Below, in pieces: positions 11,440 through 49,560 of a stretch of 64,000 nt of DNA. The notes beneath the pieces were generated by a model. That model was not told the DNA's origin. It worked only from the letters and a program-made list of their open reading frames with translations, and made no database searches. Numbering within the stretch: the stretch's first letter is position 1; every line of letters starts with the position of its first letter. This DNA is from Straminergon stramineum. Lineage: Eukaryota; Streptophyta; Bryopsida; Hypnales; Calliergonaceae. The stretch is from NCBI GenBank assembly GCA_963920665.1, contig OY987273.1, positions 9,116,501 through 9,180,500 on the forward strand, given 5' to 3'. Made by a program: the position numbers and the translations under genes.

Positions 11440-13037
11440 GGTACCCCAAGGTGAAAGTATGTCATCTTTTATGTCATAGCGCCTCAATTATGATCTCGCC
11501 TTTGGCTTCTTATACTTCCCCTTGCTTTTCAAGAAGACCTTCAAAAACTCAACACCATAGGGCAAAATCTTCTAATAGCTTTTGTTTTTGTTCGCAGGTC
11601 TCTTCACCTACAAAAAAAAATCTTTTTTCAAAGCCATTAGAAGGAGTTGTTTTGTGACCTTTATTACATCATATTTTTGCTTGAAGGCCTTCCACTACTC
11701 CTTTTCATAATACCCGTCACTATTGAAGAATCCCAGGCTTGGCTTCTCGAAATACAAGTATTTCCTTAGGACTTGTTTTTGTTTATTTTGCTCAAGCCAT
11801 TCTTTCATGCTCTAGCAATCCACAATGCTTCCCGAAACCTTTTTAATGGTCACTTTTGGGTGGGGATGCTTATTGCCTAGCATTCTATTTAGCAGATGCA
11901 ACACCAACTTCTTGAGATTAGATTTGAGGTCGTTCCCTAACCATTTGAAGAACTCACAGCTTATTACCCTATCTTTCTCCGGATCCCCGTTCTTCATATT
12001 TTTTAATGGCAACAAGGATTCCAAATCAATCAACAGTCCCTACGATTGGCTGGATATAACCTCTTTCCATAGATCATGCACCTCATGTGATGATCTTTAT
12101 TTCATTGTGGATGCATATATCTTCCACTTTCTTTTTGTTCAATGAGCCCTAGGACTTATTGACATCAATCATTGCAAAATGAAGTTTGATAGTGTCATGA
12201 AACTCTTGCACAAAATCAATAAATAGGGATAAATTAGTTACAATATATTAATGTTAAATTATACTTGACCTAGTGGCCATTGGAAGGACTATGTGAAATC
12301 AAGTCGATACAAGTTGAATGGAAAGATATACCATCCACTTCTTGGCCAAGACCAAGTCTCATAGTATCTGACTTCGAATTGCCATAGTTTTCCCCAACTC
12401 CATTGGCTCTTTCAAGCGAGGCGGCCGATTAAGACTGATCTAGACGTTTCTCGCGCTCAATATGTTTGTCACCCAAGTCGGCATATAGTTCTGGAAATGG
12501 TTCACCCTATTATAATATGCCGAAATTTTTCATATGATGCTATTGTCCTTATTCTAGATAAGAAAACAATCCCACTCCTTGAACTTCTCATACTTTTACT
12601 CAACCTTTGGAACAACCTTCATTCTCTTCGATGCCTAAATACTATGATACCCATTCACCATCCAAAATTTCTCGGACTTCACGTCTCTGTAGTTCGAGGG
12701 CTTAGATGTCAAGCTCTGAGGCATTGCGTAGAGGGTCATCTTCTTGTTTGGATTGGACATCTCCAAGAAGAACTTTCGCAACGACATTATTCCCTTCTCT
12801 TCTAGACTCGAATGTTCAAATTCTCAGAAAGGGTCTCTAGTTGTTCAATCGGGATTGTAAATTTCTTATCTACTCCAAAGACATACAAGTCCATGGACGA
12901 AGTCTAGTATTCTTCATAAATCTTCTTGGACTCATCATAATTCAGCTCCTACTAGATCCCCTACATGTCCCTTGGAAGCATGGTCATTGCAAATGCCATA
13001 TTGTCCTCTTCCAAAGCTTTTGCAAGCACATCTATAG
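11440..13037 (-). pseudogene. Family X gene, copy 2, downstream part
   Basis: This is the continuation of the gene that begins at 31046 on the minus strand; 13038-30296 is an insertion. From 12240 down to 11440 it aligns with 75-840 of copy 1 in inverted orientation, at roughly 85 percent identity by eye, and shares its premature TAG codons and frameshift. Upstream of that, the stretch 12330-13037 aligns with 41300-41830 of copy 3. For example, PTWVTNILSARN here matches PTWGNQIISCRN there. An intron lies around 12170-12330 and contains a palindrome (CAAGTCG-ATA-CAAGTTG, near 12300). Similarity to copy 1 stops near 11440. The function is unknown. Confidence 0.6.
13030..13037. repeat. Target-site duplication, left (ATCTATAG)
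   Basis: The 8-bp sequence ATCTATAG is repeated exactly at 30297-30304. It has T at position 2 and A at position 7, as in the hAT target consensus nTnnnnAn. Joining the two flanks through one copy restores the family X reading frame (KAAID-VLAKALEED). Confidence 0.8.
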
Positions 13038-13179
13038 CAAGGTTGTCATATCCGACGGGTCAAGGTCACCGGACGTCCCGGACCCTCGGGCGAACCGGAC
13101 TAGACAGACGGACACTCCGGACCCATTGGACGGCTTCAATTTTTCAAAGTTGTGGAATTTGTTTGAATGATACGTCACC

Positions 13180-13445
13180 TCGGATAGCGAGATCCAGGGC
13201 GTAGACATCATCGTGCCACCGTCAGGGCGCGGACTCCTTCAGGTAGGGCGCGGACTTCAGCGTGAGCGTCAGGGTACAGACTCCTTCAGGTAGGGTGCGG
13301 ACTTCAGCATGAGCATTAGGGCGAGGACTCATTCAAGTAGGGTGCGGACTTCAGCATGAGCATCAGGGCGAGGACTCGTTCAAGCAGGGTGCGGACTTCA
13401 GCGTAAGCGTCAGGGCGTGGACTCATGCAGTCAGGGCACGGACGG
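13180..13445 (+). repeat. GGCGCGGAC cluster, left end
   Basis: Several copies of a short motif close to CAGGGCGCGGACTCCTTCAG stand in direct orientation at 15-40-bp spacing. They are strikingly GC-rich against AT-rich surroundings. The same core recurs at 17640-17830, 18030-18200, 21030-21200, 21410-21570 and 26335-26640, and in the opposite orientation at 30085-30160. hAT elements commonly have subterminal repeats bound by transposase; that role here is inference. Confidence 0.6.
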
Positions 13446-13877
13446 GAAATGGTGGATTTTACTTATGTGTTCTCCAATATATGTATATATATAAAAATTT
13501 ATTTTTTGAACAAATGGAAGACCCTAGTGCATTAAAAAGAACTAGTAATTGCAATATATTTTACATGATTGCACTCACCAATGTTTCCAACATGCCCGTC
13601 AAACACAAAAATACAGAAAAGAAATATTAGTAGGCTGCAATGTTTGTGATAACCAAAATTGTTTATAAAATTCATGCATTGCAAAGTACAATAACAATAC
13701 AATGAATCTATACTTCCAAAATACGCTCACTTTCTCATAGGTTATCTAAGACATTCCTTTGGCTTCTCGTCCATCTTTCTTCCAATTGCTACAATTCTCT
13801 TCAACTCTTAAAGACCTGAGATCTACCATCGATGCAACTCAATAACCTCAATTATTCAAACGACTCGACCTACGAAC

Positions 13878-16800
13878 TTATTGGGCACTTGGATCTGTTG
13901 CATTAGCATCTTGAACAACAACATCATCATCCTCTGGTGCCTCATCATTCGCATCTTCATTGTTGTCATATTCATCTTCTGCTTCACCATTGTCTGTGGT
14001 CCAATGTCCCTCAACTTCCAAGTTTTCATTTTGAAGTTCTATTGTAGTTTGACCTTGACTACATTTGCGCTTGAACCTCTTATGTCGTTGTGCGTTGGGG
14101 TCTTCTGCATCAGAATTTATAGTGGGCCCATCTGGAATTGTTGGAACAACAAATGCCGAGGTTGACCCACTAGGTCCTGGTACATATGTACTTAGGAATA
14201 GTTCTATCACCCTATTTGGATCTCTTGCCCCAATTCCAAGGAGTACATGATTAGTAGGCCTTGATGATGATGCTTCTCCAATATGTTGACCTTCTCTTCG
14301 TCCACGGTCTCTACTTCCTCCACAGCCTCCAGCCCTTCCATGGCCTTTCGTCTGTCCATGGCCTTGTTGATATTGACCTAGTTCATGATGAACGGGGGGC
14401 CGAGGGGCCATAGGTGGTCTACCACCAATAGTACCACGTGAAACGCTTTGCAGAGTCAAATCAACATTCCCCAGAGAGCCTAACCCTGCTGGAGAAGGTC
14501 TTCGGATGGCATTGGAATTTGTTACTGAAGATGGGTCTATGGAATGTGGCATTTGTATACCTTGGTCAGAAATAGTAGGATGGCCCTCAATTGGAGCGGG
14601 TACATGAGCAAGGTCTTCTGGTGGTTCTACAAATGCAAAAACATCATTAGGGTCCACATGCTCTGGATCAAAAGGCCTTCTCACATTACCAGCCGATTGG
14701 TTTCTTGCAATAGGGCATGCCACTCTTGCATTTCTAACATTTATTTCATGATGTCCTTGAATAGCTCTAATGTTTCGAGTTGATGGCCCCTCATGTAGGC
14801 CCTATATTGCCATCTCGATTGTGAGAAGATCCTCCACAATTTGGATTTGCATTCCTCCCCCTGTTTACGTCGCCATCTTCATTTCCACTGCCATTTCCAT
14901 TTCCGCCACCATTTCCTAGAGGGAGGTTGTCATCATCCTCGTTGTTGTTATGGGAAATACCATCATCAATGTTATCGTCATTTGGATTGTCGGTCTCTAA
15001 AGAAGACCACAAAGCGGGGATTTCAACGATCCCTTCATTTTGAGGAAGTGGATGTGAAGGACTACGACATGGATTGTGTGGAATGGGTGGCCCCCAAGGA
15101 CCCCAACGACCATTAAGGAGTTCCTCCTCTCCATCGTCAGCATCTCCATAGTAGTTCCTTGCTTCCTCGAGGTGATCAGCTCCTCGCCTCCAAAGATCTG
15201 GGTTTGCCGGATACTCTTGAGGTACTACGTAGGCTTCTCCATCAACCTCTTCTTCTTCTTTTGCTTGTATTGTGTCGAATTCTCGATTGCGTTCATTCGC
15301 CGGGAGCAGACCAAGGGCATCTCGATCGGAATCCTCCGAGTACATATTTGCATCATACCAACGAACTGGATCGGCTCCTGGTCGTTGCTAAAGTACACGG
15401 CTATTGGTATAAATATATACCAATGACTTTGCCTTTTCAGGGGCTAATCGATTTCGGACCTTATTGTGAACAAAGGAATACATACTCCAATTCCTTTCAT
15501 AAGAGCTGGCAGAACACATGAGGGATAAAAGATGCACGGCAATTTTTGAAAGAGCCCGATCTCCAATCCTATGCCACCATTGGTGGGGAAGCATTTGTGT
15601 CACACGGATGTTGGATGTCATAGTTGGACTGTACGATCTACTACCCTCCTCAAATTCTATTAATTCCGCCAATACATCATCGAAATTCACACCCACTAAA
15701 TCTGCCATCTTGCGGATGACTCTATACAATGCACGTAGGGCAGTTCCATCTACCCTGAGCGCCACATTATCCAAGAGATATGTATTCAAAAGGGCCGCAA
15801 CGTAGTGTGTATCTTCAAAAACCATGTTCCATCTTTCATTGAAAGATGCTTCCAAAATGATTGCTATGTCATCACGTAAGCTGAAAGGTGGTTCTCTTAA
15901 AGAATACACGTGTCCTCGCAAATTGTGCATTACGAGCCACGCCCGATCCATGGCTGGTTCTCGTCCATCAAACACACGCAAAGCCTTCAATACGTCTTCA
16001 GTCATGTACACGTAATTCACACATCGTTGCCAGAAAGCCACATCTTGAATGGTTCTTCTGACATTACGTGAAGCGGTGGCTACTTGAGGTCCATTTTGTT
16101 CGTTCCGTAGGGTATCAAAGTAATTTAGAACACGCGGGTGGTTATTTAACCGCTCCAAGACTCTTTGGAGTTTCACCAATCGCTGCAACATGAGGAAATT
16201 ACAAGCGAAGCGGGTTTCGCTAGGCACTACGAGTTGTAGATTCGGACTCAACTCACAGAAAACCAACATGGTTGTATGATGGTTTCGAATGTATTGGCAC
16301 AATCTTTTTGCCCTGCCAATTAAATCCGAAAATTCTTGGATTTTGGCCCAATCTTCCAACATGAGATCTAGTGCATGTGCCATGTAGCCTTGCGCAAAAA
16401 TGTGCGGATATGTTCGAGTGATGTCTTACAATGCCCCAAGCATGTTTGCTACATTATCTGTGCACACTTGTGTCACATATTTGGAATCCACCTTCTCAAT
16501 GTACACTTTCATTTGGTTCGCTATGTAGTGCATGGTTTTCTTTTGCGAGGTAGTATCAATTGACCCCAAAAATACATCACCTGTAGGGCATGACATCATC
16601 ACATTCATGAGGGGCCTCCAATTGACATCATCCCAACCATCGGTGCATATCGAGCCCCCATAGTCCTTGATAGCAAATCCAACCTTCTCTTGAATCTGCT
16701 TCTCAATTTGCAACCTCCTCGGTTCAATTAAATTAGTCCTGAATTGATGGTAAGAAGGTGGACTATATTCAAACCTTGCCTGCGAGGTTGCCTTCACAGC

Positions 16801-17370
16801 CTCAATGAAGGTTGGATGCCTTGCCACATTAAATGGCACATTCGCTTCATAGAAAAAACTTGCCTACTTCTCATCCAACTCCTTCTTCTTTGCAATGTTG
16901 AATGCGTCCGCCATGCACTGCTGACGTAGTGATCTAGATCTCGTAGAATTTGATCTAGCAAGACTATATGACGTTTGTAGAATATCCTTTCCTTCTGAAA
17001 CGTTTGCCCCTTCTTCCACTCTCCCACCATTGATCCCACCTGTCACCTCATTTTCAGTGGCTTCACTTGAACTTGCATGTGTAGTTGCTCTAGATGACGC
17101 ACTTTGAATTGGTTCTCCTTCATACATGTCCCCGACATCCATTCATAGCGGGACAAAACCTATACAATTGGCAAATCTATGTCGCACATGACGAGGCATA
17201 CTTCGACAAATTGACCTCTCCGATTTTGAGCCATATCTGAAATGTGCAAAAGCACACTCACGTTTGTAATTGAAGGTCCCAGCACAGAAAACACAAGTCA
17301 CCTTAATCCCATTCTCCGTAAAGTTCAACCATGGTTCCCATTCCTTGGTCTGCTTCCTTTGACTTGCCAT
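13878..17370 (-). pseudogene. hAT-superfamily transposase, multiply broken
   Basis: The catalytic protein of a hAT cut-and-paste transposon. Starting at ATG 17370 (MASQRKQTKEW) one frame runs to 14791. There is a BED-type zinc finger (C26/C29, His near 43), a DUF659 region from about codon 178 (PFNVARHPTF), a first catalytic Asp context GGSICTDGWDD (about codon 244), a second Asp context VCTDNVANM (about 305), and the C-terminal dimerisation block SSYERNWSMYSFVHNKVRNRL with the catalytic Glu (about 625). In-frame stops are TGA 17143-17145, TAG 16864-16866, TAA 16426-16428 and TAG 15388-15390. Each is followed by clear continuation of the same protein. An acidic Asn/Gly-rich tail reaches 14791. 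After an apparent 1-nt frameshift a further low-complexity Gly/Pro/Asp-rich tail (13878-14770) follows; whether it belongs to the transposase is uncertain. Confidence 0.85.
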
Positions 17371-17824
17371 TGCGTTCAACCGTTCACAAATAATTTCAAC
17401 TGTCTTCCTCCTCCTTTGTATTGAAGTTAAAAAGATTGTAGATATACCGAATAAAGTATCAGTAACAGCAGTTAGCGCTAATCCACTGCTTGAACTGATT
17501 TTGACATCACTGCGGCAGCAAACTAGGGCCATTTGCCACCCAAGTAGACTCACAAAGAGCTCAAAATGAATTGAAGTCCAAGAAATAGAGGCCAGGTGAC
17601 AAATGTGGGGAATGCTCGGTCCTCCTTTTCTTTATATACTTAGGGAATGCAGAGGCGTGGACTTCACCGATGTGCGTGGCAGTAGGGCGCGGACTTCTTC
17701 ATTCCCAAATTGTAAGGCGCGGACGCACACTTTGAGAATTTTTGGAGGATGTTCACAACTCACACTTGAATCCCTAGCATCAGGGCGCGAACAAGAAGGT
17801 AGGGCGCAGACTCCAAGGCGAAAC

Positions 17825-18410
17825 TCCACTACAAAAATGTGGGTGCGCACATGGGGATGCACTAGGCATAGGATCCCTCCTTCCTATTTAATGGTCTTGG
17901 AAGATGGTATCCCCCCTTTTCATGGAAAGAGGGAAACATTAAATGCTATCACACCTTGCTTTAGAGTCCTCATATTCGTGGAGAGACAAGAACGCTTTCT
18001 CTCACAAATGTTTTCGCTGAATGGGCTGTGTTAGGGTGCGAACGCAGGGGGCGGACTCCAGGGCGAACAATTCACAAAGGCAAAAGAACTTGAGAGAGCA
18101 TAGCTGAATCACAGACACCATAGTGTGGACATGAAGTCAGGGCGCGGACTCCAAGGCGTGGACTTGAAGTTAGGGCACGAACTCCAAGGCATAGACGTGC
18201 TCGTCCAGCACAGGAGGCAGGACTTTGAAATGCGCTTGGGCTTGACATCCTTCAATCCTTCCTTTTTTTGGAGTAGGGCAACCATTAATTATAGCCTGAA
18301 CAACTTGTTTTGGATTCCGACAAGACAATGAAAGCAAGATGCCAAATAAAGAGCTCCACTGACTAAGATTTGGAAGAAACTTCATGGAAGAGCATGTCCC
18401 CTTCACTGTG
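17825..18410 (+). repeat. ~590-bp duplicated block, copy 1
   Basis: Very nearly identical (by eye above 95 percent) and in direct orientation to 21195-21790. It includes two GGCGCGGAC-rich patches. Similarity extends, with indels, into the downstream AT-rich repeats (19055-19340 resembles 23115-23440). This is therefore a tandem segmental duplication of about 3.4-4 kb rather than a clean LTR pair. Confidence 0.8.
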
Positions 18411-18429
18411 GTGAAAGATGTTAGTAAAG

Positions 18430-19560
18430 CTCTCCCATCCCAACTCTATGCCATTCATTTGCGTTTGGATCATTTTCTCCTATTTTATTGGCTTCATTCC
18501 TAAAACTCTCACATTCCAACTTATACTAATCTTTTTTCTTTTGGTTGAATCAATCTTTCTTCTATTTTGTTCCTAAAACTCTCCCATCCCAACTCAAAGC
18601 CAAATGTTCATTTTTTGGTCCATCATTCCTTTCCCTATTTTCTTGGATCATTCCTAAAACTCTCCCATTCCAATTCCTAGTTTTTTTTTATTTGTTGAAT
18701 CATCTCCTTTTCTATTTTGTTTTGCTTCATTATTTAGCAAGACTCTTTTCTAGTTTTCTTCCAACTCCATGCTGATCTTTATTTGTTGAATCATTCCCTT
18801 TCCTATTTCATTTTTGCTTATTTCCTAAAGTTCTCCCACCTCAATTCAAAGCCATTAATTTTTTGTTCCATCATTATCTTTCCTTTTTTTTTTGTGTTTG
18901 CTTCATTCCTAAAACCCTTCCATCCCACCTCAATGCCATTCTTTTTTTTTTGGCTTCATGAACTCCTTAAACACTTCCATTTCAACTAAATGCCATTTGT
19001 TTTTTGTTCCACCATTCCCTTTCCTATTTTTTTTGGCTTTGGATTCCTAAACACTTCCATGCCATTTTTGGGGGGTGGATTAATTCCCTTTCCTATTTTA
19101 TTTGCTTGATTAGGAAAGTTGTTCCATCCCAAGTTAAACTAAATGGCATTATTATTCCCTTCCTAGTTTTTTTGGGCTTGATTAGCAAAATTGCTCCATT
19201 CCAACCCAAGCCCCAAGGCCATTGAAATGATTTAATTTTTGTATTCCCTAAACCTTTTCTAATTTTTTTTGGTTTGATTTGCAAGATTATTCTATCCCAA
19301 CTCAATGCCATTTATTTTTTGGTATATCATTTACTTCCTAATTTTTTTGGGCTTCATTTGCAACATTATCCCATGCCATCCCAATGCCCTTTATTTTTTG
19401 TATATCATTCCCTTCCTATTTTTTTTTGGCTTGATTAGCAAAATTGTTCAATCCCACCTCAATGCACTTTATTTTTTGTATATCATTCACTCCCTATTTT
19501 TTTTTGGCTTCATTAGCAAAACTCTTACATTCCAACTCAAGGCCATTTAGTTTTGTGGTA
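18430..19560 (+). repeat. ~76-bp AT-rich tandem array
   Basis: Degenerate head-to-tail units of roughly 76 bp with recurring words CATTCCTAAAACTCT, CCCATCCCAACTCAATGCCA, a T-run, and CATTCCCTTTCCTATTTT. The T-runs make spurious Phe-rich open frames. The array is non-coding. Confidence 0.75.
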
Positions 19561-21000
19561 TCCCAACTCAATGATAAATTATTTTTACAGTATCAAATTG
19601 AAGTCTTTCCATTCTCTTTGCATGTCATATACACAAAATAGGTAAGAAAAAAATTGAGGTTAAAGGCTATCATATGCATTAGAAAATCAACATTGGCAAT
19701 TGACACCTTGCATTAAATCTTTAGGGTCACTCCATCCCAACTCCATTCCAACTCAATGATAAATTTTTTTACAATACATTTCCATTCTCTTCACATGTCA
19801 TAAAAAAATAGATAATAAAAAAAATATGAAGTTAAAGGCCATCACGTGCATTAGAAAATCAAGAATGACAATGGATACTTTGCATTAAATCTTGAGTAGA
19901 AAAATATAACCCATTTGTTTATGGTACATGGGCCAAAAGACTCTTTAATAAAAAGGAAAATAGTCAAAAAAAAATTTCCTATCCATTTAGGTCCCAATTT
20001 TGTATAAAATAGAATTGTAGGGCCTTACATCGGATCCTACCCTTGGATTCCCTACTTGCCTTGAATTCTCTTCCTTGGATTTCTTTCTCCCCATTTTTCT
20101 TTGCTAGAATTATATTTTAGCAAGAAAACAAATTCAAGTATTTGTGTTTGGGATTTAGGCCCTTAGGCTCAAACATTCTAACTTGTAACTAAAGTTTTGA
20201 ATCATACCGAAATTAAATTTACGAAAGTTTGGGTGACCCCATCCCTCGTTAGGGGCATTGAATTTCAAAGCACTTACATTTGAAGTCAATGCCATTTTGG
20301 GGGGTTGGATAACTTAGAAGGGAACCATTTCTAAGAAAATAGCTAGAAGGGATGGTTTTTGAATGGAAGCTCAGATCTTCAATTCTTTTGGATTCACGTG
20401 AAGGGACTAATATTTGAAAATGCTTGGTATAAGGGTTTTTGGAATAATTGATAGAATGAATTTTATTAATGAACCCATAGGTTTTATTTCTTCAAATCCA
20501 TTATTCGTAATAAAGGATTCAATTTGAGGCATATTAACTAAAAGAAATTTATTTCGGAAACGAGAAATTACAAGTTACATTTTCTTCTAAATGTAAAGGG
20601 ATTGTTTGTTTTTGCTCATATCTCTTCATTGTCTAGCCTTTGTGGCTTGGTCTGTTGTGTATTTTTTTTTATGCAATGGTTCTTTCCATTTGTTAAAAAA
20701 AATAAAAAATGTAAAGGGATTCATTTTTTTTCTTACTTGGCACAAGGGACTGTTGCTTAATTGAACGTACAAGTTAAATTGAAGTAGAATGATTGTGAAT
20801 GCCAATCCATGATTACAAATCATTGGTACAAGAAATTGATTTTCACATGAACTTACAAGTTATATTGATTTCAATGCATGAGAAGGGTTCTTTTCTAAAG
20901 GTAATTGCTACATCTATTTGTTATTTAATTCAACCCTAAGCCATTAACTCAAACCCTAAACCCTGCACTCTTGAAACCCTTGGCCACAATAATTCAAGAA
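19561..21000. other. AT-rich spacer between duplicated blocks
   Basis: No gene is visible. A short direct repeat occurs (19660-19710 resembles 19830-19890, around the words AAGGC-ATCA-TGCATTAGAAAATCAA). One telomere-like CCCTAAACCCT word lies near 20950, too short to interpret. Confidence 0.4.
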
Positions 21001-21194
21001 GTTGGAGGGTGGAACTTCATTGTGTTGGCACTACTCAAGGCGTGGACGTCATCATAGGGCGGGGACTCCAAGTGAGGGCGAGGACTTGAAATTAGGGCGC
21101 GGACTCCAGGGCGTGGACGTCATCATAGGGCGTGGACTTTAGGGCGCGGACTCCATAACAGGGCGCAGACTCCAAGGCACGGACTCCAAGGTGA

Positions 21195-21790
21195 AACTCC
21201 ACTACAAAAATGTGGGTGCGCACATGGGGATGCACTGGGCATAGGATCCCTCCTTCTTCCTATTTAATGGTCTTGGAAGATGGTGTCCCCCCTTTTCATG
21301 GAAAGAGGGAAACATCAAATGTTGTCACACCTTGCTTTAGAGTCCTCATATTCGTGGAGAGACAAGAACGCTTTCTCTCACAAATGTTTTTGCTGAATGG
21401 GCTGTGTTAGGGCGTGAAGGCAGGGGATGGACCCCAGGGCGAACAATTCACAAAGGCAGAAGAACTTGAGAGAGCGTAGCTGAATCACAGACTCCATAGT
21501 GTGGACATGAAGTCAGGGCGCGGACTCCAGGGCGTGGACTTGAAGTTAGGGCACGAACTCCAAGGCATAGACGTGCTCGTCCAGCACAGGAGGCAGGACT
21601 TTGAAATGCGCTTGGGCTTGACATCCTTCAATCCTTCCTTTTTTTGGAGCAGGGCAACCATTAATTATAGCCTGAACAACTTGTTTTGGATTCCGACAAG
21701 ACAATGAAAGCAAGATGCCAAATAAAGAGCTCCACTGACTAAGATTTGGAAGAAACTTCATGGAAAAGCATGTCCCCTTCGTCGTGGTGG
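21195..21790 (+). repeat. ~590-bp duplicated block, copy 2
   Basis: Second copy of the block at 17825-18410. GGCGCGGAC-type motifs lie just before it (21030-21200) and within it (21410-21570). Divergence from copy 1 begins after the word CATGTCCCCTTC. Confidence 0.8.
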
Positions 21791-22019
21791 AAAATGTTTT
21801 TCCTTCTTGTAACACTTCAAACTACTTTGAACCAACAAATAGTTTAGGGTGTAAAAAAAAGACTCTAAATTCTAAAGTGTTTAGGACACTTTGAGGAAAT
21901 ATTTAGGAAATGTTTTGGAAATGTAGTGTACTAGATAAAAGGGTAAAACCGCATTTTGTTTAAAATGAAAGAAATAGTAGGGAGTTAAAAAAAAATTCTA
22001 GGCCTTCAATATGTCACTT

Positions 22020-23640
22020 GAATTTTTAATTCCATCATTCCCTTTCCTATCTTGGGGGGGTTCATTCCTAAAACTCTTCCATCCCACCTCAATGCCATTA
22101 ATTTTTTTGTAAATCATTCAATTTTCTTTTTGGCTTCATGAACTCTTTAAACACTTCCATTTCAACTACTTGCCCTCTATTTTTTGTTCCATCATTTTTT
22201 TCTTCATTAATTCCTAAAACCCTTTAATTTGAACTCCATGCCAATATTTATTCATCCAACTCACTTCCTTTCCTATTTTCTTTTGCTTTCCTATTTTTTT
22301 TCTTCATTAATTCCTAAAACTCTTTTATTCCAATTCCATGCTAATATTTATTTATTGCGTCATTTCCTTTCCTATTTTTTTTGCTTTCCATTTTTTTTCC
22401 TTCATTTATTCCTAAAACTCTTTTATTCCAACTTTAAGCAAGCTTTTTTTTGTTCCATCATTCCCTTTCCTATTTTTTTTACTCATTAGCAAAATTCTTC
22501 CATCCCAACTCAATAATAAATGTTTTTTATGGTACCAAATTGGAGTCTTTCCATTCACTTCCCATTTCTCATATGAAAAAATAGATAATCAAAAATAAGA
22601 TTTTTTTGATATCTCTTTCGCATTTGTTTGCTTTTATTAACATTTAAAATGCACTTACATTCCAATGGATTGACATTTCTTTCCCTTCCCTAGTTTTCAT
22701 CATTGATTGGAAATGAATCCTACTCCAATTCAATGACATTTAATTTCATTCCCTAAATGTTTTTATCATTAAATCCTATTCCAATTCAATGACATTACAT
22801 TTCTTCACCTAATTTTTTTTATCATTGAATATTTGAATCCTATTTCAACTCAATGACATTTCATTTCCTTACCTAAATTTTATCCCCATTGAATCCTAAT
22901 CCAATTCAATGACATTTCATTTTTCTCACTAACTTTTTTATTTATTAAATCCTATTCTAACTCAAAGACATTTTACTTCCTTCCCTAATTTAAAGTTTTC
23001 AATTTTATCTTATGGTCATTTTTTGGTAACCATTTTATTGGATATGTACCTATTTCCATCCCAATTTAATGATTCCCATTTACCTTTCCCAATTTTTGGT
23101 GCTTCGGATAACAATACACTTCCATGCCATTTTTTTGGTAGGATTCATTCCCTTTCTGATTTTTTTTGCTTGATTAGCAAAATTGTTTCATCCCAAGTTA
23201 TACAAGAACTAAATGGCATTATTATTCTCTTCCTAAATTTTTTCCAACTCAATGCCATTTTTTTTTCATTGATCATTCCCTTCCTAATTTTTTTGTGCTT
23301 GATTAGCAAATTGCTCCATCTCAACCCAAGTGCATTTAATTTTTGTATTCCCTAAACCCATTCTAATTTTTTGGGGTTTGATTTGCAAGATCATTCTATC
23401 CCAACTCAATGCCATTTATTTTTTGGTATATCATTCTTTCCCTATTTTTTGCTTTTCTCCATCATTCCTTTGCCTATTTTAGTATTTTGCAATTAAATAT
23501 GTATCTATTACCATCCTATTTTTTTTTGGGTTCCATCATTCCTTATTTCCTTTGCATTAACGACATTTCAAAAGTGTTTTTTTCCTATTAAATGACATTT
23601 ATGGTCCTTCCCTAATTTTATTCATTGATTGGAAATTGGG
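22020..23640 (+). repeat. AT-rich tandem arrays, second block
   Basis: The same ~76-bp family as at 18430-19560, interrupted at about 22640-23000 by a different array. That inner array has 60-70-bp units based on TCCAATTCAATGACATTTCATTTC. The stretch 23640-23900 downstream is AT-rich and featureless. Confidence 0.7.
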
Positions 23641-23903
23641 AATGAATTTTACTCCATTTCAATGACATTTCATTTCATGGTATAAATAATTTTAATATGT
23701 ATGAAGTCGACAAGTCATTTCAAATGAGTATGTGCAAACAATAAACGAAGTCAATTTGGGCAAAACCATTCAAAACAAAATCATATATATTTCATATGCA
23801 TAGTGTAATATAAAGTAGGAAAGTATATAAGCCTATATAATGCTAGGAAAGTAAGTCTTCTAAGAAAACCTAAGCTCACTAGCTAAAACATTCTAAACTA
23901 TAC

Positions 23904-26201
23904 CTAGTCAATGTTCATTGGACTACTTGCACTACCACTTGGTCCAACCTCATTGTCATGTGTCCCGACATGGACTGGAAGGTCTTCATCTGAGCCCAAA
24001 TGAAGTCTACGAACTGTGGATCGAGTTCTCCTTCCTGGTCCGTCTTCCTCTAATATAGCCCTCAATATTTGTGATTGTTTGAGGCTCTCAAGACATTGGA
24101 GAGTTCCCGGGCTATGCTGTTCCAACAAATAGTCCATCCCTTCATTTTAAAAGGTTTCTCGCCACTTTGACTCCAGTAGTTGTGCAAGTTCAACAGGGTT
24201 TGGCATGCCAATGTCTTCCTGCATCTGCATCCCATTGTCGTTAGTAATGCGAACTCCATCAATGCCCCATAACCATCCACGAGGATGAGGTCCAAGTTAG
24301 AAGTATTGTCCAGCTTCGTTCCAATGCCCATTGAAGCACTGGAAGAAGAAATTCTGTCTTCCTTGGTTGAAGTTGTCCTTTAGTGGAACCAAGTGGTGGT
24401 ACACCTCCACAATTTGAGCTGGATCTCTTTCCCAACCCCATTCAGTACAAAGGTTTTGTTTGTCCAACGAATGGATGTTCAATTTCCAGCTCCACACCAA
24501 GTCTATTCCTCACTTTTGAGAATGATCAGGGGCATTTTCAGCATTGAATTTCCAATGCGGTGGCATGTAGGGAACTAATCCAAACAACTCATACAAGCGC
24601 TCATGGAAAGGAGCCTTGCACAATGAACAACGTCGGCGAATAATCATCAAGCTAATTAGGCAGAATGGGTGGTACAAATGTTCGCACGTGCCTAGGTGCA
24701 TTCCACCTTCCGAGCCAAATGGATTAAGACAAATGGGACATGTAGTTCCATAATGCACGAAGGTTGAAGGATTTGGCTACAGTAGTAATGGATTGCCTTG
24801 ATGGTCGATGGCAGAGCCAATTGCATTCTTGAAATCCCAAGCATGTTTGGACCAATCGATGGTTGTTGGTCCACCACCAATGTTGATGGTCGCCATTTCA
24901 TCCATGTTGAAAAGATCATCCACTAGGGCCCACGATGTCAAACCAAAAACCCTCTCTTGATTGTGTGCGTCGTAATTGTTGTCAATTTTTTTGAATTCTT
25001 CCACCATTTGCCTAGTTCTGTCAATACTAAAGATGCATGCCATCTTCCATTGGTAATACTGCTCCATCAACGCATGCAATTGATTTTTCAATCTCAAATT
25101 GTTTGCAAGCGCGTCCATCAGTTGGGTGCTTTGGTCAACTGGTACTGCTGCAACTGCATTCGTAGGTAATTCTCCAAAAAACAATGAATCTTCTTGAGTA
25201 CCCATTGTTGCACCAACTTCTGCATGTTCCAATGGAATTTGAGAATTATTTGAAGGCCCTTGCGCTTCCCCTCGTGGATCCTGACCAGCATTGGTCAATG
25301 TTGCTACCTCAAGAGCATGTCGAAGTACCTCCATCTCAAGTTGTTGTTGATTGATGATGTTGTCCTTCTCTTTGATTTCTTCCATCAATTTGTTAACATC
25401 ATCATACAAAGAATGCAATTCCGCATTCTTGTCATTCACTTCAGTCAACAAACTCTGAATTCGGTTTGCAGCAGCTATAACATCGACAATTCCTATTGTT
25501 GGTTCGTTAGTAGGTGGCACCTATTCCTCTACAACATTTTTTGGTAAAACCTCATCAGTTGCACGCGCAGCCCTCCTCTTTTTAGCACGTTGTTGTTGTG
25601 TTCTATGGCTGACTACAATTGGCACATGAGATCCATTGGAGTCGTTGTCCGTAGATGAGTCCGAAGTGTCATAATTTGGTGGTGCGTGAACCTGTGTAGT
25701 TTTTTTCGATAGACCACCTTCCGGGTATCTTTTTACCCCCCTTGGAATGAATCCATTCTCTGGGGTAGGAATTTTGACATTTTCCCCCATTGTCTTCAAA
25801 GTTGACTAATCCACTCTCTTGTTCAACTTCACCTCCGCATGGACCTCTTGTGCAATGAAAAGATGCACTTCATTGCATGTGACGTTCGGGACATCATACA
25901 ACACTTGGAACACCTCAATGCATCAATTCGTGAACTCATTGTCAAGGCAATGTTTCAAATTTGCCTTGTGGAAGCGTCTATGAAAGTTATGTCGCTCTTT
26001 TGAGAAGACCTTGTCAATGTGGCACCACTCGATGTAATTGGTGCAATCATCATAAGTCCATGGGTCAGGCACGTCCTCCCACCCCTTAAATGCAAGCTTG
26101 GTAGGGTTACGTAGAACATGTAGTCGCTTACGATGTTTGGTTCCTGCTTGCAATCGGGTCTTGTCTCGTTCCTCCTTGGTCATTCTTGGTGGTATAGCCA
26201 T
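23904..26201 (-). pseudogene. RING-H2 / coiled-coil protein, broken
   Basis: One reading frame of about 766 codons starts at ATG 26201 (MAIPPRMTKEERDK) and ends at TAG 23904-23906. In order: a basic N-terminal domain with WEDVPDPWTYDDC and EWCHIDKVF; a charged linker with a KKRR patch; a coiled coil at about 25300-25460; a helical region; then a RING-H2 finger at 24618-24740. The finger has all eight ligands at C-x2-C-x14-C-x-H-x2-H-x2-C-x10-C-x2-C spacing. A C-terminal region of unknown type follows. RING-H2 fingers usually mark ubiquitin E3 ligases; that role here is inference. In-frame stops lie at 25923 (TGA), 25806 (TAG), 25521 (TAG), 24777 (TAG), 24510 (TGA), 24297 (TAA) and 24147 (TAA), with the protein continuing after each. 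It is divergent from the kinase-like gene 700 bp away. Confidence 0.65.
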
Positions 26202-26334
26202 TTTTGCAGAAAAATTTGAAAACCTCCAACGTGGCAATCAAGTAGACCCTGCACAACGCTCACAACCAGCTTAACAAAGAGGTGGAAGGCTGAGAGTATG
26301 CAGGGCGGGCACAAATGGGGCGGAAACAACTTTA

Positions 26335-26640
26335 TATAGTTGGAACTGGGGGATGCCAGGGCGCAGATGCCATCGCTGGGGGCGCGGATGCCATCGTAGG
26401 GGGCGCAGACGCCATTGCTGGGGGCATGGACACCATTGCTAGGGCGCGGACGCCATCGTTGGGGGCGCAGATGCCATCGCTAGGGCACGGACGCCATCTC
26501 CGGGGGCGCAAACGCCATCGCCGGGGCACGGACACCATCTCTGGAGGCGTGGACGCCATTGGCAGGGCGCAAACGCCATCGTAGTTGGGGCGCGAACGGC
26601 TATCGATGACTGTAGGGCGTGGACCTGTGGGAGCGGGGTG
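26335..26640 (+). repeat. GGCGCGGACGCCATCG minisatellite
   Basis: About 14 degenerate units of roughly 15-21 bp (GGCGCGGACGCCATCGCTGGG type) sit in the intergenic space between the two divergent pseudogenes. Translations give Ala/Pro/Asp low-complexity sequence on both strands, so these are not genes. The position suggests a shared promoter or regulatory region, but no specific promoter element can be asserted. Confidence 0.7.
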
Positions 26641-26904
26641 GGAACGCCACTTGCAGGGGCGGGAATGCTAGGGGACAAGGGGTGGATGTGAGCGGGGGGA
26701 CGATATAAAGCGAGTCCCTGCCCTCATTTCTTTGCCCAGTCCGCGCCCTATGCCTCACACACTAGTTCGTCCCCGCGGCCTATGTGAGTGAGTTTGGTGG
26801 GTGGTTGGCTTGGCCCGCATATGTGACCTGTTTTTTTTTAATTTTTTTTAACTTTCGTGCTTTTGGATTGATACGGAGGCCCAGCGTACCAAATTTTTTT
26901 CATT

Positions 26905-28485
26905 ATGACAGGGGAAGGGAGTGGATCTGCGGAAAAACGTCCTATATTTAAAGATTTGGATGATGTCGGTGAGATGGTAATTCCATCTACGAACACATTG
27001 ATGTCCTCAGGTTCATCAAATCCTTCCTCATCAGGCCAAAAGAAGCACAAAAAAGCACAAAATCCCCATATGCCTCCACATGAATTCATAGTTGAAGGGA
27101 GAGCAATAGTTGTGGTGTTCTACACTCGTCGAGGTACAACTATGTTGACCAAGGAGTATGTGGCGCACAACAAAGAAGGATACTACAAACTCACAAGGGA
27201 CCTGCGAAGGGAGTTGGAGTCAAAGTTTGAAGCATCTGAGAAATTCAACAATTTCTCTGATTATTGGTTGCAACAAGATTGGCTGGATAAACAGGTGGTT
27301 GCCCTCACAACCAATATAGTGTCAAATTGGTGTTACCACACAAGTAAGAAAGAGGATGGTAGCGATTGGGACATGCAGAACAAAGAGTTGGTTGCAAAAT
27401 TGAAAATCATTCAAAATTTTGCTCAACAATTTTCTTCATCGCGTAAGAAAAAGCAAGCACCATGGAAAGCGACAATTGAAGACGCAATAAGGGCTCATTG
27501 TGTGAGTGAAACATTCAAGTGGCTTGAAAGTTCAGTAAAAGTCATCCCCATGTCGGAATAGAGTGCGGTTGGTTCATATGGAACAGTGAGGAAGGTGATG
27601 CTTACAAAACTTGAGAGTATTCCTAGTTGGATATTTTTTGCTGGGAAGAGCTTGAAAACCACAAATGAAAAGGAGAAGCGCCAAGGAATCATCAATGAGG
27701 CGGGAGGGGGTCCAGTGATACATCCTAGCATCATTCGAATTGCGTACTTCCACCCTAAAACGATGGAAGGCTATACGTTGTGGTGGAATGGAGGATCTCT
27801 CATTTCTTTCTTATCCAAATACAATTTGAAAGTGAGCGAATCAGTGGATGTGGATGACATTGAGCATGAACAAGGTACAGGGTTGACAAAAGAGGAGCTT
27901 GCATGGGTTGCAACTTACCGAAAGAACCAAGTGAACTTGGTACTCTCCTTGCTTGTCATTGTGGGGAAATGCCATGATGCACAATACATGCACAACGACA
28001 TAACTCCATCCAATGTTTTGCTCCATTTTGATGATTGGAAAGAACACAGGGTGTACATAGGGATATGTGATTGGGGACTTTCTAGCCGAGTTGTAGAGAA
28101 GGAGCCATCAAGGTATAGCTTTCCTAGCATGGAGTTTCTAGCGAAGGAGAGGAAGAAGCGAAGGTTTGCAGCCCCTAAATTGTTTTATGTATAAGGAGAG
28201 CAGGGTTCAGCAAATTCAATTGAGGCCATGCAAAAAACACATTTGTACTCCATGGCTGTTGATGCACATGCGGCGAGATGGATAGGAGCTACAATTTGGA
28301 AAGAGGACTGGAACCCCAAATACTTTACAACAAAGAATCCAGAGCAATATCAGAACCTCAGGATCAAATTGGAAAGCCTCGTAAAAGAGGATGTGAGTGA
28401 AAGGGCGTCAGTGCCAAATGTTCTAGACACATTGAAAAATGCCCCCCACTGTTGGACTATGCTAGATTGTGGTTATCGTACATAG
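26905..28485 (+). pseudogene. Protein-kinase-like protein, broken
   Basis: A 527-codon frame from ATG 26905 (MTGEGSGSAEK) to TAG at 28483-28485, with internal TAG at 27559-27561 and TAA at 28192-28194. The first ~215 residues form an unrecognised domain with a Ser-rich start. From codon ~220 the protein follows the kinase fold order: a glycine loop AVGSYGTV lacking the first Gly, IFFAGKSL as the likely Lys strand (about codon 249), catalytic loop YMHNDITPSNVLL (HND for the usual HRD, about 361-375), and ICDWGLSS (DWG for DFG). The WIGATIWKEDW region suggests the C-lobe. The substitutions mean activity cannot be assumed even before the stops. It may be a host kinase captured by the element or an element-specific gene. 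Confidence 0.6.
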
Positions 28486-28789
28486 TATTTAGTTGTTTTA
28501 CTTTTTGTAGTTTAGCATATAGTTTAGGCATAGAAGGTAAATCACCCTCATAGAGGACCATGTGGACCTGCTTGAAAATTGCCAAACACCTCAAAATATA
28601 TATAAAATCGGATGTATTCTTTACTCAAAATCTCATAATATATTAATATTCCATTTCATTGTTCTTTCTCATTGCATTTTTATGAGTTCTATGAATTGAT
28701 GATAAAACTTAAATAAAAACAATGAATGTAGTAGTTTGGTATAAAAATACATACACTTTATGTTTTCACTATGCCTATGTTTTAGGAGT

Positions 28790-29680
28790 TCATGAAGCCC
28801 CCTGAAAAAAAATAATCCAACAAAAGAAAGAATGACATTGAAGTAGATTGGAAGAATTTTAGGAATGAAGAAAAAAATAAAAGGAAAGGGAATGATGGAA
28901 CAAAAAAATAAAAATAATGGCTTTGAGTTTAGATGGAAGAACTTTAGTAAATAAGCAAAAATAAAATAGGGAAGGGAAAGATTGAACAAATAAAGCAAAA
29001 CTATGAGTTCAAATAAAACTATCTTCCTAATTCATGAACCAAAACAAAATAGAAAATGGAATGTTTCAACAAAGAAGAAAAGAATAACCATGAGTTGGGA
29101 TGGGAGAGTTTTAGGAATGAAGCCCAAAAAAAGAGAGAGAATGATCCGACCCCCCAAAAATGGCATAGACTTGGGATGGGAAGGGCTTTGTTTATTAATG
29201 GAAAAAAATAGGAAAGGAAATGATGGAACAAATACAAAATGGCTTAGGGTTGGAATAGAACAATTTTGTGAGAGAGATAAGTCCACAAAAAGTGAAAAAA
29301 TAGTGTGTCAAAATGATTTGAACTAACACCCTCCAAAATTTATCATTCAATTCGGATAGAGTTGGGATACCACAAAAAAGAAATGGAATTCACTTGGGAT
29401 GAAAGAGTTTTGCTAATGAAGCAAAAAATGAAATGAATGGGAATGATCAACGATAAATAAATGGCCTCGGGTAGAGATGGAACATTTGTGCTAATCACAG
29501 AAAAAAAAATAGGAAAAAAAAATCATTCCACCCTACACAAGTGGCATTGAATTAAAATAGAAAACTTTTGGTAATGATGCCAAAAAAATAGGAAAGGGAA
29601 TGATTCCACCAAAAAAATAAGGCAAGTGACTTGGAATGGAAGTGTGCTTTAAAAATGAATGTCCAAAAGGGGAGATGGAG
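28790..29680 (-). repeat. ~76-bp AT-rich tandem array, inverted
   Basis: Complement of the family at 18430-19560 and 22020-23640 (recurring GGGAATGATGGAACAAA, TTGGGATGGAAGAGTTTTAG). The RING and kinase-like pseudogenes are therefore bracketed by inverted arrays of the same repeat. Confidence 0.7.
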
Positions 29681-29754
29681 TGACCCAAGCTTTTGAAAAG
29701 CATACCAATTTATTTTAGAGTGGCCAATTATTTTTAAGAAGTTATATAATCTAA

Positions 29755-30010
29755 CATTAAAAGAAATATGAATGGTGGAGTGCTTTTGAATATGGAAATG
29801 GTTTGGGTGTTAGTGTGATATGATGTAACACCCAAAAAATTTATGGAATGGTGGAGTGATTTGGAGATGAAAGTGGTTTGGGTGTTACAATGATGTAATT
29901 TAACACCCCCAAAAAATATAGAATGGTGGATTGATTTGGATATGGAAATGATTTGGGTGTTACAGTGATATGATGTAACATTAAAAAAAAATATAGAGTG
30001 TTGGAGTGAC
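29755..30010 (+). repeat. ~75-bp tandem repeat, 3.5 copies
   Basis: Units begin near 29772, 29846, 29921 and 29998 with GAATGGTGGAGTGATTTGG-type sequence and include GGTTTGGGTGTTA and GATGTAACACC. The period is close to that of the neighbouring AT-rich family although the sequence differs. Confidence 0.7.
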
Positions 30011-30296
30011 TTGGAATATGGAATATGGAATATGAAATATGAAATGGAAATATGTAAAAGCATATGAATTTAGCATATGTAAATCCTGTCCACGCCTTGA
30101 CGATGGCGTCCATGCTCTAATGATCCCGTCCGCGCCCTGACAATGGCATCCACGCCCTGCACGTTCTAAAATCCATGTGGCATCCACGTGGGCTATTTTT
30201 CTGTTTTCATAAAGTCAACTTTGTGTTGACTGTATCGGATGGGTGAGACCTCTAACGGACGAGCGAACCGGACGTCCGTCCACTATGACAACGAGG

Positions 30297-30304
30297 ATCT
30301 ATAG
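30297..30304. repeat. Target-site duplication, right (ATCTATAG)
   Basis: Exact repeat of 13030-13037, immediately outside the right inverted repeat (TATGACAACGAGG, ending at 30296). Confidence 0.8.
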
Positions 30305-48239: not shown

Positions 48240-49560
48240 TCCCTATGTAGTCGCAACAACTTTTAGTTACAATTTACGAATTCGTTTTTTGGAATTTTAG
48301 GGCGCGTAATATACCGTTGGAAAGGTCTTGGAAATACCTTTCCAATGGTATATCACACGCCCTTAAACACCAAAATCTCCAATCGGGAATGCCAAAAGAA
48401 GTATGATGCTTCAAAAAGTGAGTGTCCGCCTTGGTGTCTGCCTGTCCGCCCGTCCGCCCACCCTCCCGTCTGCACCCCACGTTTGCTTGGCAAACGGTCG
48501 GACGGGTGATCAGTTGGGCGGACGCTCACTATATAGTTGCAACAACATTCAGTTGCAATTTCTAAATTCAATTTCTGGAATTTTGGGGCGTGTAATATAC
48601 CGTTGGAGAGGTCTTGGAAATACCTTTCCAATGGTATATCACACGCCCTTAAACACCAAAATCTCCAATTGGAAATGCCGAAAGAAGTATGATGCTTCAA
48701 AAAGTGAGTGTCCGCCTTGGTGTCCGCCCGTCCGCTTGGTGGACGGGCTAACGGGAGATCATCTGGGCGGATGCTCACTTTGTAGTCGCAACAACTTTCA
48801 GTTGCAATTTCTAAATTCAATTTTTGGAATTTTAGGGCGTGTAATATATCGTTGGAGAGGTCTTGGAAATACCTTTCCAATGGTATATCACACGCCCTTA
48901 AACACCAAAATCTTCAATTGGAAATGCCGAAAGAAGTATGATGCTTCAAAAAGTGAGTGTCCGCCTTGGTGTCCACCCGTTCACCCGTCCGCCCACCCTC
49001 CTGTCTGCACCCCACGTCCGCTTGGCAAACGGTCGGACGGGTGATCAGTTGGGCGGATGCTCACTATGTAGTCGCAACAACTTTCAGTTGCAATTTCCGA
49101 ATTTGTTTTTTGGAATTTTGGGGCGTGTAATATACCGTTGGAGAGGTCTTGGAAATACCTTTCCAATGGTATATCACAAGCCCTTAAACACCAAAATCTC
49201 CAATTGGAAATGCCGAAAGAAGTATGATGCTTCAAAAAGTGAGTGTCCGCCTTGGTGTCCGCTTGTCCGCCCTCCCGTCCGCACCCCCGTCTACTTGGTG
49301 GACGGGCGGACGGGAGATCAGCTGGGCGGACGCTCACTTTGTAGTCGCGACAATTTTCAGTTGCAATTTCCGAATTCAATTTTTGGAATTTTGGGGTGTG
49401 TAATATACCGTTGGAGAGGTCTTAGAAATACCCTTCCAATGGTATATCACACGCCCCTAAACACCAAAACATTCAATTGGAAATGCCGAAAGAAGTATGA
49501 TGCTTCAAAAAGTGAGTGTCCACCTTGGTGTCCGCCCGTCCGCCCTCCCGTCCGCCATGA
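48240..49560 (+). repeat. ~250-290-bp tandem repeat, left array
   Basis: Five units start near 48248, 48533, 48783, 49071 and 49342 with GTAGTCGCAACAACTTTCAG. Each contains the near-palindrome ATACCGTTGGAGAGGTCTTGG...CCTTTCCAATGGTAT and ends in a GC-rich GTCCGCCCGTCCGCC patch. Open frames through the array are repetitive and overlap on both strands, so they are not taken as genes. Confidence 0.8.

Follow-up and report, generated by a model that had tools for sequence, protein, structure and literature searches.

Transposons of the hAT superfamily are usually a few kilobases (kb) long and encode little beyond a transposase, and the locus analysed here raises the question of what a RING-H2 gene and a protein-kinase gene are doing inside a hAT element of 17,259 base pairs (bp) in the moss Straminergon stramineum. 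The element occupies positions 13038-30296 of a stretch of 64,000 nucleotides (contig OY987273.1, positions 9,116,501 to 9,180,500 of the forward strand, assembly GCA_963920665.1), which is called the window below and supplies the coordinates used. The plastid PsaB of the assembly scores highest with the PDB entries 7ksq, 6l35 and 8htu of the moss Physcomitrium (1674 bits, against 1633 for the next entry), in line with a moss host. An original prediction, made from the letters of the window, had regarded the RING and kinase genes as passengers of a single composite element. The answer favoured by searches of the whole assembly (326,016,511 bases in 59 contigs, 11 of them large, with the plastid contig included) is a different one, and we consider it rather probable: the element represents a giant multi-gene hAT family in which the RING and kinase genes are core and anciently associated genes, probably forming an element-specific regulatory or anti-silencing module.

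The first step of the answer concerns the borders of the insertion, which are the following.

13030-13037, no strand: left 8-bp target-site duplication, ATCTATAG, as read in the sequence.
13038-13077, plus strand: left end with terminal inverted repeat, CAAGGTTGTCATA... in the window copy and CAGGGTTGTCATA or TAGGGTTGTCATA in most other copies read.
30257-30296, minus strand: right end with terminal inverted repeat, ...TATGACAACGAGG in the window copy and ...TATGACAACCATG in most other copies read.
30297-30304, no strand: right 8-bp target-site duplication, ATCTATAG, as read in the sequence.

The element thus lies between exact 8-bp copies of ATCTATAG, and both the duplication and the coordinates had been predicted right to the base. 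The predicted inverted ends were likewise found, with 10 of the first 14 bases identical between the left end (CAAGGTTGTCATA...) and the reverse complement of the right end (CCTCGTTGTCATA...), and GTTGTCATA is carried at both ends in inverted orientation. Each end is repetitive, with at least 40 genomic places detected by 201-base queries. The empty sites that had been proposed as a check were also observed: the flanks joined through one copy of the duplication (400 bases) gave 32 rows, comprising 28 genomic places that run uninterrupted across the junction at 73–81% identity, two rows representing the window's own flanks and two partial ones. Since these 28 paralogous sites are uninterrupted, the target of the element is one copy of a dispersed family of repeats or genes, and window positions 13038-30296 are a single hAT insertion. 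The claim that excision restores an interrupted reading frame was right in that the joined flanks do yield a frame, but the frame is not unique, as one of 120 amino acids (aa) appears on the minus strand and one of 121 aa on the plus strand.

Within these borders, the RING-H2 and kinase genes that had been predicted are real, and the window copy contains the following genes and parts.

13851-17370, minus strand: degenerate hAT transposase gene (DUF659, hAT C-terminal dimerisation domain, BED-like N-terminus), whose stop-free relatives have frames of 1182-1221 aa.
17400-23900, no strand: repeat-rich non-coding region of about 6.5 kb; the matching region is largely kept, together with the ends, in two gene-less 7 kb derivatives.
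23907-26201, minus strand: degenerate full-length copy of the RING-H2 gene, about 765 aa, with a novel N-terminal domain, a coiled coil, the RING-H2 finger and a conserved C-terminal region.
24615-24743, minus strand: RING-H2 finger (C-x2-C-x14-C-x-H-x2-H-x2-C-x10-C-x2-C), coordinates converted from protein positions.
25788-26180, minus strand: the RING protein's novel N-terminal domain (FKGW..PW..YIEWCHI.K.FP..RH), placed by conversion of its positions in the alignment.
26905-28482, plus strand: degenerate full-length copy of the protein-kinase gene, 526 aa, head to head with the RING gene.

All three genes were compared with their relatives in copy X, a copy on contig C1 picked for its open frames. 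The transposase gene (17370-13851, minus strand) has five stops and covers 1164 of 1167 residues of the relative in two matched stretches, and therefore contains a frameshift; the RING gene covers 765 of 765 residues with seven stops, and the kinase gene 526 of 526 with two. Because stops interrupt all three genes, the window element is a dead copy. The predicted transposase domains were upheld by Pfam for DUF659 (E 2.1e-21) and for the hAT dimerisation domain (PF05699, E 1.7e-6, above the cut-off), whereas the BED-like region was recognised by eye alone, with no Pfam BED match at E values up to 10. The window kinase retains its lysine and its HND and DWG motifs while APE is changed to APK, and PF00069 falls slightly under the cut-off in Pfam.

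Whether the three genes belong together was assessed from other copies in the genome. The lists of left- and right-end places were paired by contig and strand within 40 kb, and at least 17 end pairs of 6.1–36.9 kb were found, so that the element is not a one-off composite, the same ends bounding many elements genome-wide. Thirteen copies of this lineage (lineage 1) were read, namely 12 of the 17 pairs (the window copy W and copies B to L) and copy X, with three pairs at 6.1–6.3 kb and two at 27–37 kb standing outside the copies read. An exact 8-bp duplication surrounds the whole element in 12 of the 13 (copy H is without one). In 11 of the 13, as the proposed check for copies with both ends had asked, all three genes co-occur; these gene-bearing copies measure 12.2–18.3 kb, have one common architecture, and carry their own exact duplication in 10 of 11 cases. 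The other two, K at 7.4 kb and L at 7.1 kb, are devoid of transposase, RING and kinase sequence. Both retain the two ends and a large share of the central non-coding region, most of one can be aligned with the other, and each has its own 8-bp duplication; they are gene-less derivatives of the common type that moved.

Genome-wide gene searches with the window frames as queries (331 aa from the C-terminal end of the transposase, 247 aa from the RING protein and 202 aa from the kinase) gave at least 75 transposase, 78 RING and 77 kinase rows of the same lineage, at about 80% identity or more. Both the RING and the kinase gene lie within 40 kb of 73 of the 75 listed transposase copies (67 of 75 within 20 kb), and order and orientation are as in the window in 73 of the 73 three-gene loci. 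In copy X all three genes are open, with 1182, 777 and 552 residues from stop to stop, the element is flanked by the duplication GTTTGGAT, and the transposase matches the hAT dimerisation domain PF05699 at E 2.6e-7; stop-free full-size rows of lineage 1 number at least six for the transposase (1182 aa or more), at least six for the RING protein (777 aa) and at least 11 for the kinase (552 aa). With a constant order and orientation in 73 of 75 copies, and with the recurrence of the pair in a second lineage described below, the RING and kinase genes behave like core members of a family with many copies, and their carriage by nearly every copy suggests that they are working parts and not accidental cargo.

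These counts also bear on the idea that the hAT gene and the RING/kinase pair came from different elements inserted one into the other, which was the outcome named beforehand as contradicting a single element. Nested independent insertions were looked for and not found; the outer ends and the internal order are common to the 11 gene-bearing copies, 10 of which are exactly duplicated at their borders, and the 73 of 75 loci keep that order genome-wide. Nothing in favour of nesting was found, although the window copy does have an internal duplicated stretch (17876-18175 and 21252-21551), and the idea is regarded as refuted.

Two further observations were made in these searches. The element copies at C10:1925753-1934810 and C10:7567199-7576256 score identically in the transposase, RING and kinase searches, as would be expected if a segment of about 9 kb or more had been duplicated recently or if the assembly contained the same segment twice. 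In addition, further DUF659 matches occur in the genome (best 150 of 676 candidates), several of them with frames above 900 aa, and may include other hAT lineages; the claim of extra genes applies to the families described here and is not extended to all DUF659 hATs of this genome.

A distant lineage (lineage 3) carries the RING/kinase pair as well. Its rows match the window queries at about 46–47% identity for the transposase, 37–41% for the RING protein and 36–40% for the kinase, and between lineages 1 and 3 the RING proteins are 38% identical over 852 columns and the kinases 28% over 549 columns. Copy T (contig C5), picked for its open kinase and RING frames, is 21,250 bp long, is bordered by the exact duplication CATGAGTC, has ends alike at 13 of 16 bases, and contains a broken transposase gene, a kinase gene of 575 aa, a RING gene of 903 aa and additional frames of 522 and 270 aa, the latter of which extends to 493 aa or more in other lineage-3 copies. 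The N-terminal domain of the RING protein is common to the 522-aa protein (39% over 155 residues) and the 270-aa protein (37% over 231). The gene order differs between the lineages, the kinase gene lying between the transposase and RING genes in lineage 3 and the RING gene between the transposase and kinase genes in lineage 1. Searches with the ends of T (best 40 of 830 and best 40 of 787 candidates) gave at least 13 pairs within 40 kb including T itself, spanning 12.2–24.6 kb, and nine of the 13 measure 20.3–21.6 kb; the borders of 10 of the other 12 pairs showed seven exact 8-bp duplications (one with a boundary shifted by a base), two at 7 of 8 bases and one pair without.

The pairing of the lineage-3 genes was counted among the matches listed, taking in 100 of the at least 142 rows of the 270-aa gene. 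The transposase gene is paired with the 522-aa gene in 28 of 31 cases, all on the same strand; the 522-aa gene with the 270/493-aa gene in 56 of 83 (55 on opposite strands) and with the kinase gene in 32 of 83 (31 opposite); the kinase gene with the 270/493-aa gene in 37 of 49, all on the same strand; the transposase gene with the kinase gene in 13 of 31 (12 at 10–14 kb, opposite) and with the RING gene in 10 of 31, all on the same strand; and the kinase gene with the RING gene in 15 of 40 (14 at 5 kb, opposite). The low fractions probably stem from counting only among the matches listed.

Recurrence in two lineages bears on the passenger label, according to which one RING gene and one kinase gene of a host were captured in a single event by an ancestral hAT and have ridden idle since. 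Gene capture by transposable elements is common in plants, and the recognisable domains have ordinary RING and kinase folds, both of which would suit such a capture. On the other hand, the pair occurs in two lineages whose transposases are about 46% identical, with duplications of their own around the elements in lineage 3 and a fixed order and orientation in lineage 1, so that the passenger label that had been proposed is not supported, and idle riding appears rather unlikely.

An intermediate, strongly decayed group at 44–72% identity is also present among the genome-wide gene matches. Of the RING-gene rows of the decayed intermediate lineage at 44–57%, 15 of 27, counted by eye, lie on contig C11, the contig that carries the window (17.4 Mb, about 5% of the assembly), and 16 of the 28 empty-site paralogues lie there as well; this would fit a non-recombining or sex chromosome.

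The N-terminal domain of the RING protein, of about 130 residues, has G33, W34, W41, W52, C53, H54, R63 and H64, among others, invariant in 14 rows, and gave no convincing match in the PDB (best E 0.66 with one sequence, best E 1.4 with the 14-row profile); in Pfam the best match was SAM_PNT at E 0.022 in 3 of 14 members, with Ndc10_N weaker, and the domain is treated as unmatched. A coiled-coil-like stretch is indicated by weak Pfam coiled-coil matches. In a 20-row alignment the C-terminal part is conserved and the zinc ligands C500, C503, C518, H523, C526, C537 and C540 are invariant, while the first histidine of the RING-H2 ligand pair is changed to cysteine in some rows; the eight ligands of the C3H2C3 pattern are present. 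The Pfam family zf-RING_2 is matched at E 1e-4, under the cut-off, in copy X and over the cut-off in the relative P0021, and the nearest fingers in the PDB are those of RNF24 and RNF38; the element protein is a putative ubiquitin ligase.

In the kinase, the N-terminal half is unmatched and is followed by a kinase domain whose catalytic residues are the usual ones, HND standing for HRD and DWG for DFG. The eukaryotic-type motifs (Lys, HxD...N, DxG, APE) are all found, K274 and N396 are invariant and D391 and D415 are kept at 90% or more in a 26-row alignment, PF00069 is over the cut-off in the relatives P0002 and P0005, and the nearest PDB structures are VRK1 and CaMKII with marginal scores. 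In NCBIfam, neither the RING proteins nor the transposase had a match, and the kinase had weak sub-threshold matches only. This retention of catalytic and zinc-binding residues, with full open frames in several copies, is a further point against idle passengers, which would be expected to be lost or shattered.

Protein databases contain at least 21 relatives of the RING protein (36–98% identity, best 7994 candidates) and at least 28 of the kinase (29–97%, best 7997), mostly from short contigs without an organism. One of them, P0028, is a kinase 73% identical to that of the element, is labelled 'MAG: protein kinase, partial [Bacilli bacterium]' and lies on a 2-kb contig, probably representing plant transposon DNA binned into a bacterial genome; three other kinase relatives (P0043, P0047 and P0050, 38–39%) lie on ENA contigs of 218–315 kb. 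A prokaryotic source of the kinase was considered and rejected, the four confirmed matches in prokaryote genomes being just 26–35% identical and limited to kinase residues 367–533. Kinase and RING genes are frequent in giant viruses, and a viral or giant-virus source, with the element as a hybrid of provirus and transposon, was weighed accordingly. Pattern scans of IMG/VR gave 103 RING and 27 kinase matches, none of them confirmed (two short patterns were used for each, and distant relatives can be missed); by eye, without a family-by-family search, no capsid, packaging or polymerase gene was seen among the frames of X and T; and hAT ends and duplications are present. Such an origin is accordingly considered very improbable.

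A second shared property of the elements is a set of short motif arrays, which in the window copy are distributed as follows.

13197-13422, plus strand: left subterminal array of the motif GGGCGHRGAC, from the motif scan.
17685-18149, plus strand: motif matches lying upstream of the start of the transposase gene (copies X and T were the ones used for the upstream test).
21076-21539, plus strand: motif array inside the non-coding region, away from any gene start, from the motif scan.
26401-26757, no single strand: motif matches in the shared RING/kinase upstream region, three plus and one minus (the upstream test itself was again made on X and T).
30128-30137, minus strand: right subterminal motif, inverted relative to the left end, from the motif scan.

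The CpG-rich motif GGGCG[CAT][GA]GAC occurs 29 times in X against 0.04 in mononucleotide shuffles and 22 times in W against 0.12, and the lineage-3 motif differs from it (GGGCGAC, 58 in T against 1.6 in mononucleotide shuffles). In the 700 bp upstream of the gene starts, the motif is present in a fixed orientation to the gene at 3 of 3 starts in X (8, 4 and 1 matches; rotation p 0.027) and at 5 of 5 in T (7, 7, 5, 4 and 4 matches; rotation p 0.025), where the motif matches were rotated around the element and one orientation relative to the gene was counted. The left 500 bp contain the motif in 13 of 13 lineage-1 copies and the right 500 bp contain it inverted in 12 of 13, gene-less copies included, and the gene-less copies K and L retain 24 and 16 matches. 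The motif stands before the RING and kinase genes just as before the transposase gene, which also speaks against idle riding. An alternative is that the arrays are ordinary minisatellites in GC-rich non-coding DNA to which nothing binds, the RING protein and kinase serving elsewhere, for example by modifying the transposase or host repair. Motif number and spacing do vary between copies and the rotation p is only about 0.025, as a minisatellite would allow; the inverted placement at the ends, the matches before all gene starts (3 of 3 in X and 5 of 5 in T) and the arrays kept by the gene-less copies K and L speak against it, and this alternative is seen as possible but somewhat doubtful.

Several observations weigh against the reading of a giant family with a working RING/kinase module. 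Median pairwise ratios of nonsynonymous to synonymous change (dN/dS) among 11 copies are 0.74 for the transposase, 0.62 for the RING gene and 0.48 for the kinase gene, with 0.98 for a non-coding stretch read as coding. Changes shared by two or more copies do not differ in ratio from private ones (Fisher p 0.73, 0.14 and 0.79 for transposase, RING and kinase), stop codons are as frequent as expected in each of the genes of lineage 1, and against a CpG-aware neutral expectation the kinase alone is marginally low (p 0.048 for shared and 0.04 for private changes; RING shared 0.076). CpG decay is strong, with 0.57 C to T changes per CpG site against 0.095 elsewhere, and most lineage-1 differences look like post-insertion decay. 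As regards the arrays, the rotation p-values are modest, the RING and kinase upstream windows overlap in X, the X kinase gene has a single motif match in the expected orientation, and a large internal array lies away from any gene start in each lineage. DNA binding by the N-terminal domain of the RING protein is a guess, because the domain has no convincing family or structure match.

Within lineage 1, purifying selection was sought in three ways and was not clearly shown. The near-neutral changes in the RING and kinase genes and the undepleted stops are also what idle captured genes would show. Because the lineage-1 changes are near-neutral, conservation between the lineages is the main ground for inferring selection on the RING and kinase genes, and the functional case for both is built on that conservation together with the open copies.

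If the elements of the giant family do depend on their RING and kinase genes, a mode of action can be proposed. The transposase would cut and paste the element through terminal and subterminal sites, and the N-terminal domain of the RING protein, with its lineage-3 relatives, would bind the element-specific arrays that precede each element gene and lie near both ends. At these arrays the RING finger and the kinase might then act through ubiquitination and phosphorylation, on chromatin or on transposition proteins, with the outcome that the element would be switched on or de-silenced, or that its transposition would be licensed, a working mode resembling that of VANC in the VANDAL elements of Arabidopsis but with different proteins. 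In its strongest form, a sequence-guided ubiquitin and phosphorylation system, a new DNA-binding domain would read lineage-specific CpG-rich arrays and deliver RING ligase activity, together with a dedicated kinase, against silencing or to license transposition; this proposal is tentative and, taken as a whole, somewhat unlikely. If it were true, motif and binder would co-evolve and each lineage would control only itself and its gene-less derivatives.

Among known systems, the element resembles the hAT superfamily (Ac/Ds, Hermes) in its 8-bp duplication, its short imperfect inverted ends and its DUF659 and hAT dimerisation domains, with a weak match to the Hermes transposase in the dimerisation region (E 0.018). 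A C-x2-C and His/Cys pattern was seen by eye at the BED-like N-terminus of the element transposase, and candidate D-D-E residues were read by eye in the X and T transposases. The difference lies in size and content, as the moss elements reach 12–22 kb with two to four conserved non-transposase genes. In the En/Spm transposon, a member of the CACTA superfamily that is not known to have a kinase or RING gene, the element protein TNPA binds repeated motifs subterminally and at the promoter, and the same behaviour is proposed here for the moss element. The transposase of VANDAL elements belongs to the Mutator superfamily. VANDAL elements are multi-gene DNA transposons whose non-coding regions contain tandem arrays of short motifs, different from one related family to the next, as do those of the moss elements. 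The nearest published parallel is VANC, whose targets are described as tandem repeats, variable among related elements, that are found upstream of the VANA transposase gene or within introns (PMC5735166; PMC10398659). VANC proteins contain DUF1985/DUF287, whereas the moss element has a RING protein with an unmatched N-terminal domain and a kinase; no DUF1985/DUF287 match in Pfam was found among the element proteins scanned, and the element is thus not a VANC-type member.

ToxhAT of fungal wheat pathogens is a 14-kb hAT that likewise carries non-transposase DNA; it differs in being fungal and in carrying the effector gene ToxA, with no conserved RING/kinase set in the content described in the accessible part of the report (PMC9594970). 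Terminons, giant Gypsy-like elements and Helitrons are large multi-gene eukaryotic elements with other transposition mechanisms, and one Gypsy-like element, from a planarian, reportedly contains a RING motif, according to the available text of a 2019 review of giant transposons, in which 'hAT' and 'kinase' have no whole-word occurrence (PMC6431247). A term search of the available main text of a 2026 review of plant gene capture gave no hAT, kinase, RING, moss or bryophyte, and no report of a hAT with RING and kinase genes was found in the open-licence library searched.

Elsewhere in the window, positions 48502-49555 are occupied by a tandem repeat with a unit of about 249–273 bp in 3–4 copies, which has long frames with repeated peptide blocks on both strands and is unrelated to the element as far as seen.

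A hAT clade of 12–22 kb that has retained a kinase and a RING gene through deep divergence breaks the rule that hAT elements are small, and it is present in well over a hundred copies in one moss, with at least 75 lineage-1 transposase rows and at least 142 rows of one lineage-3 gene. Such a family would offer a natural system for asking how a transposon may control its host through protein modification, and its motif arrays open element-specific anti-silencing to direct testing.

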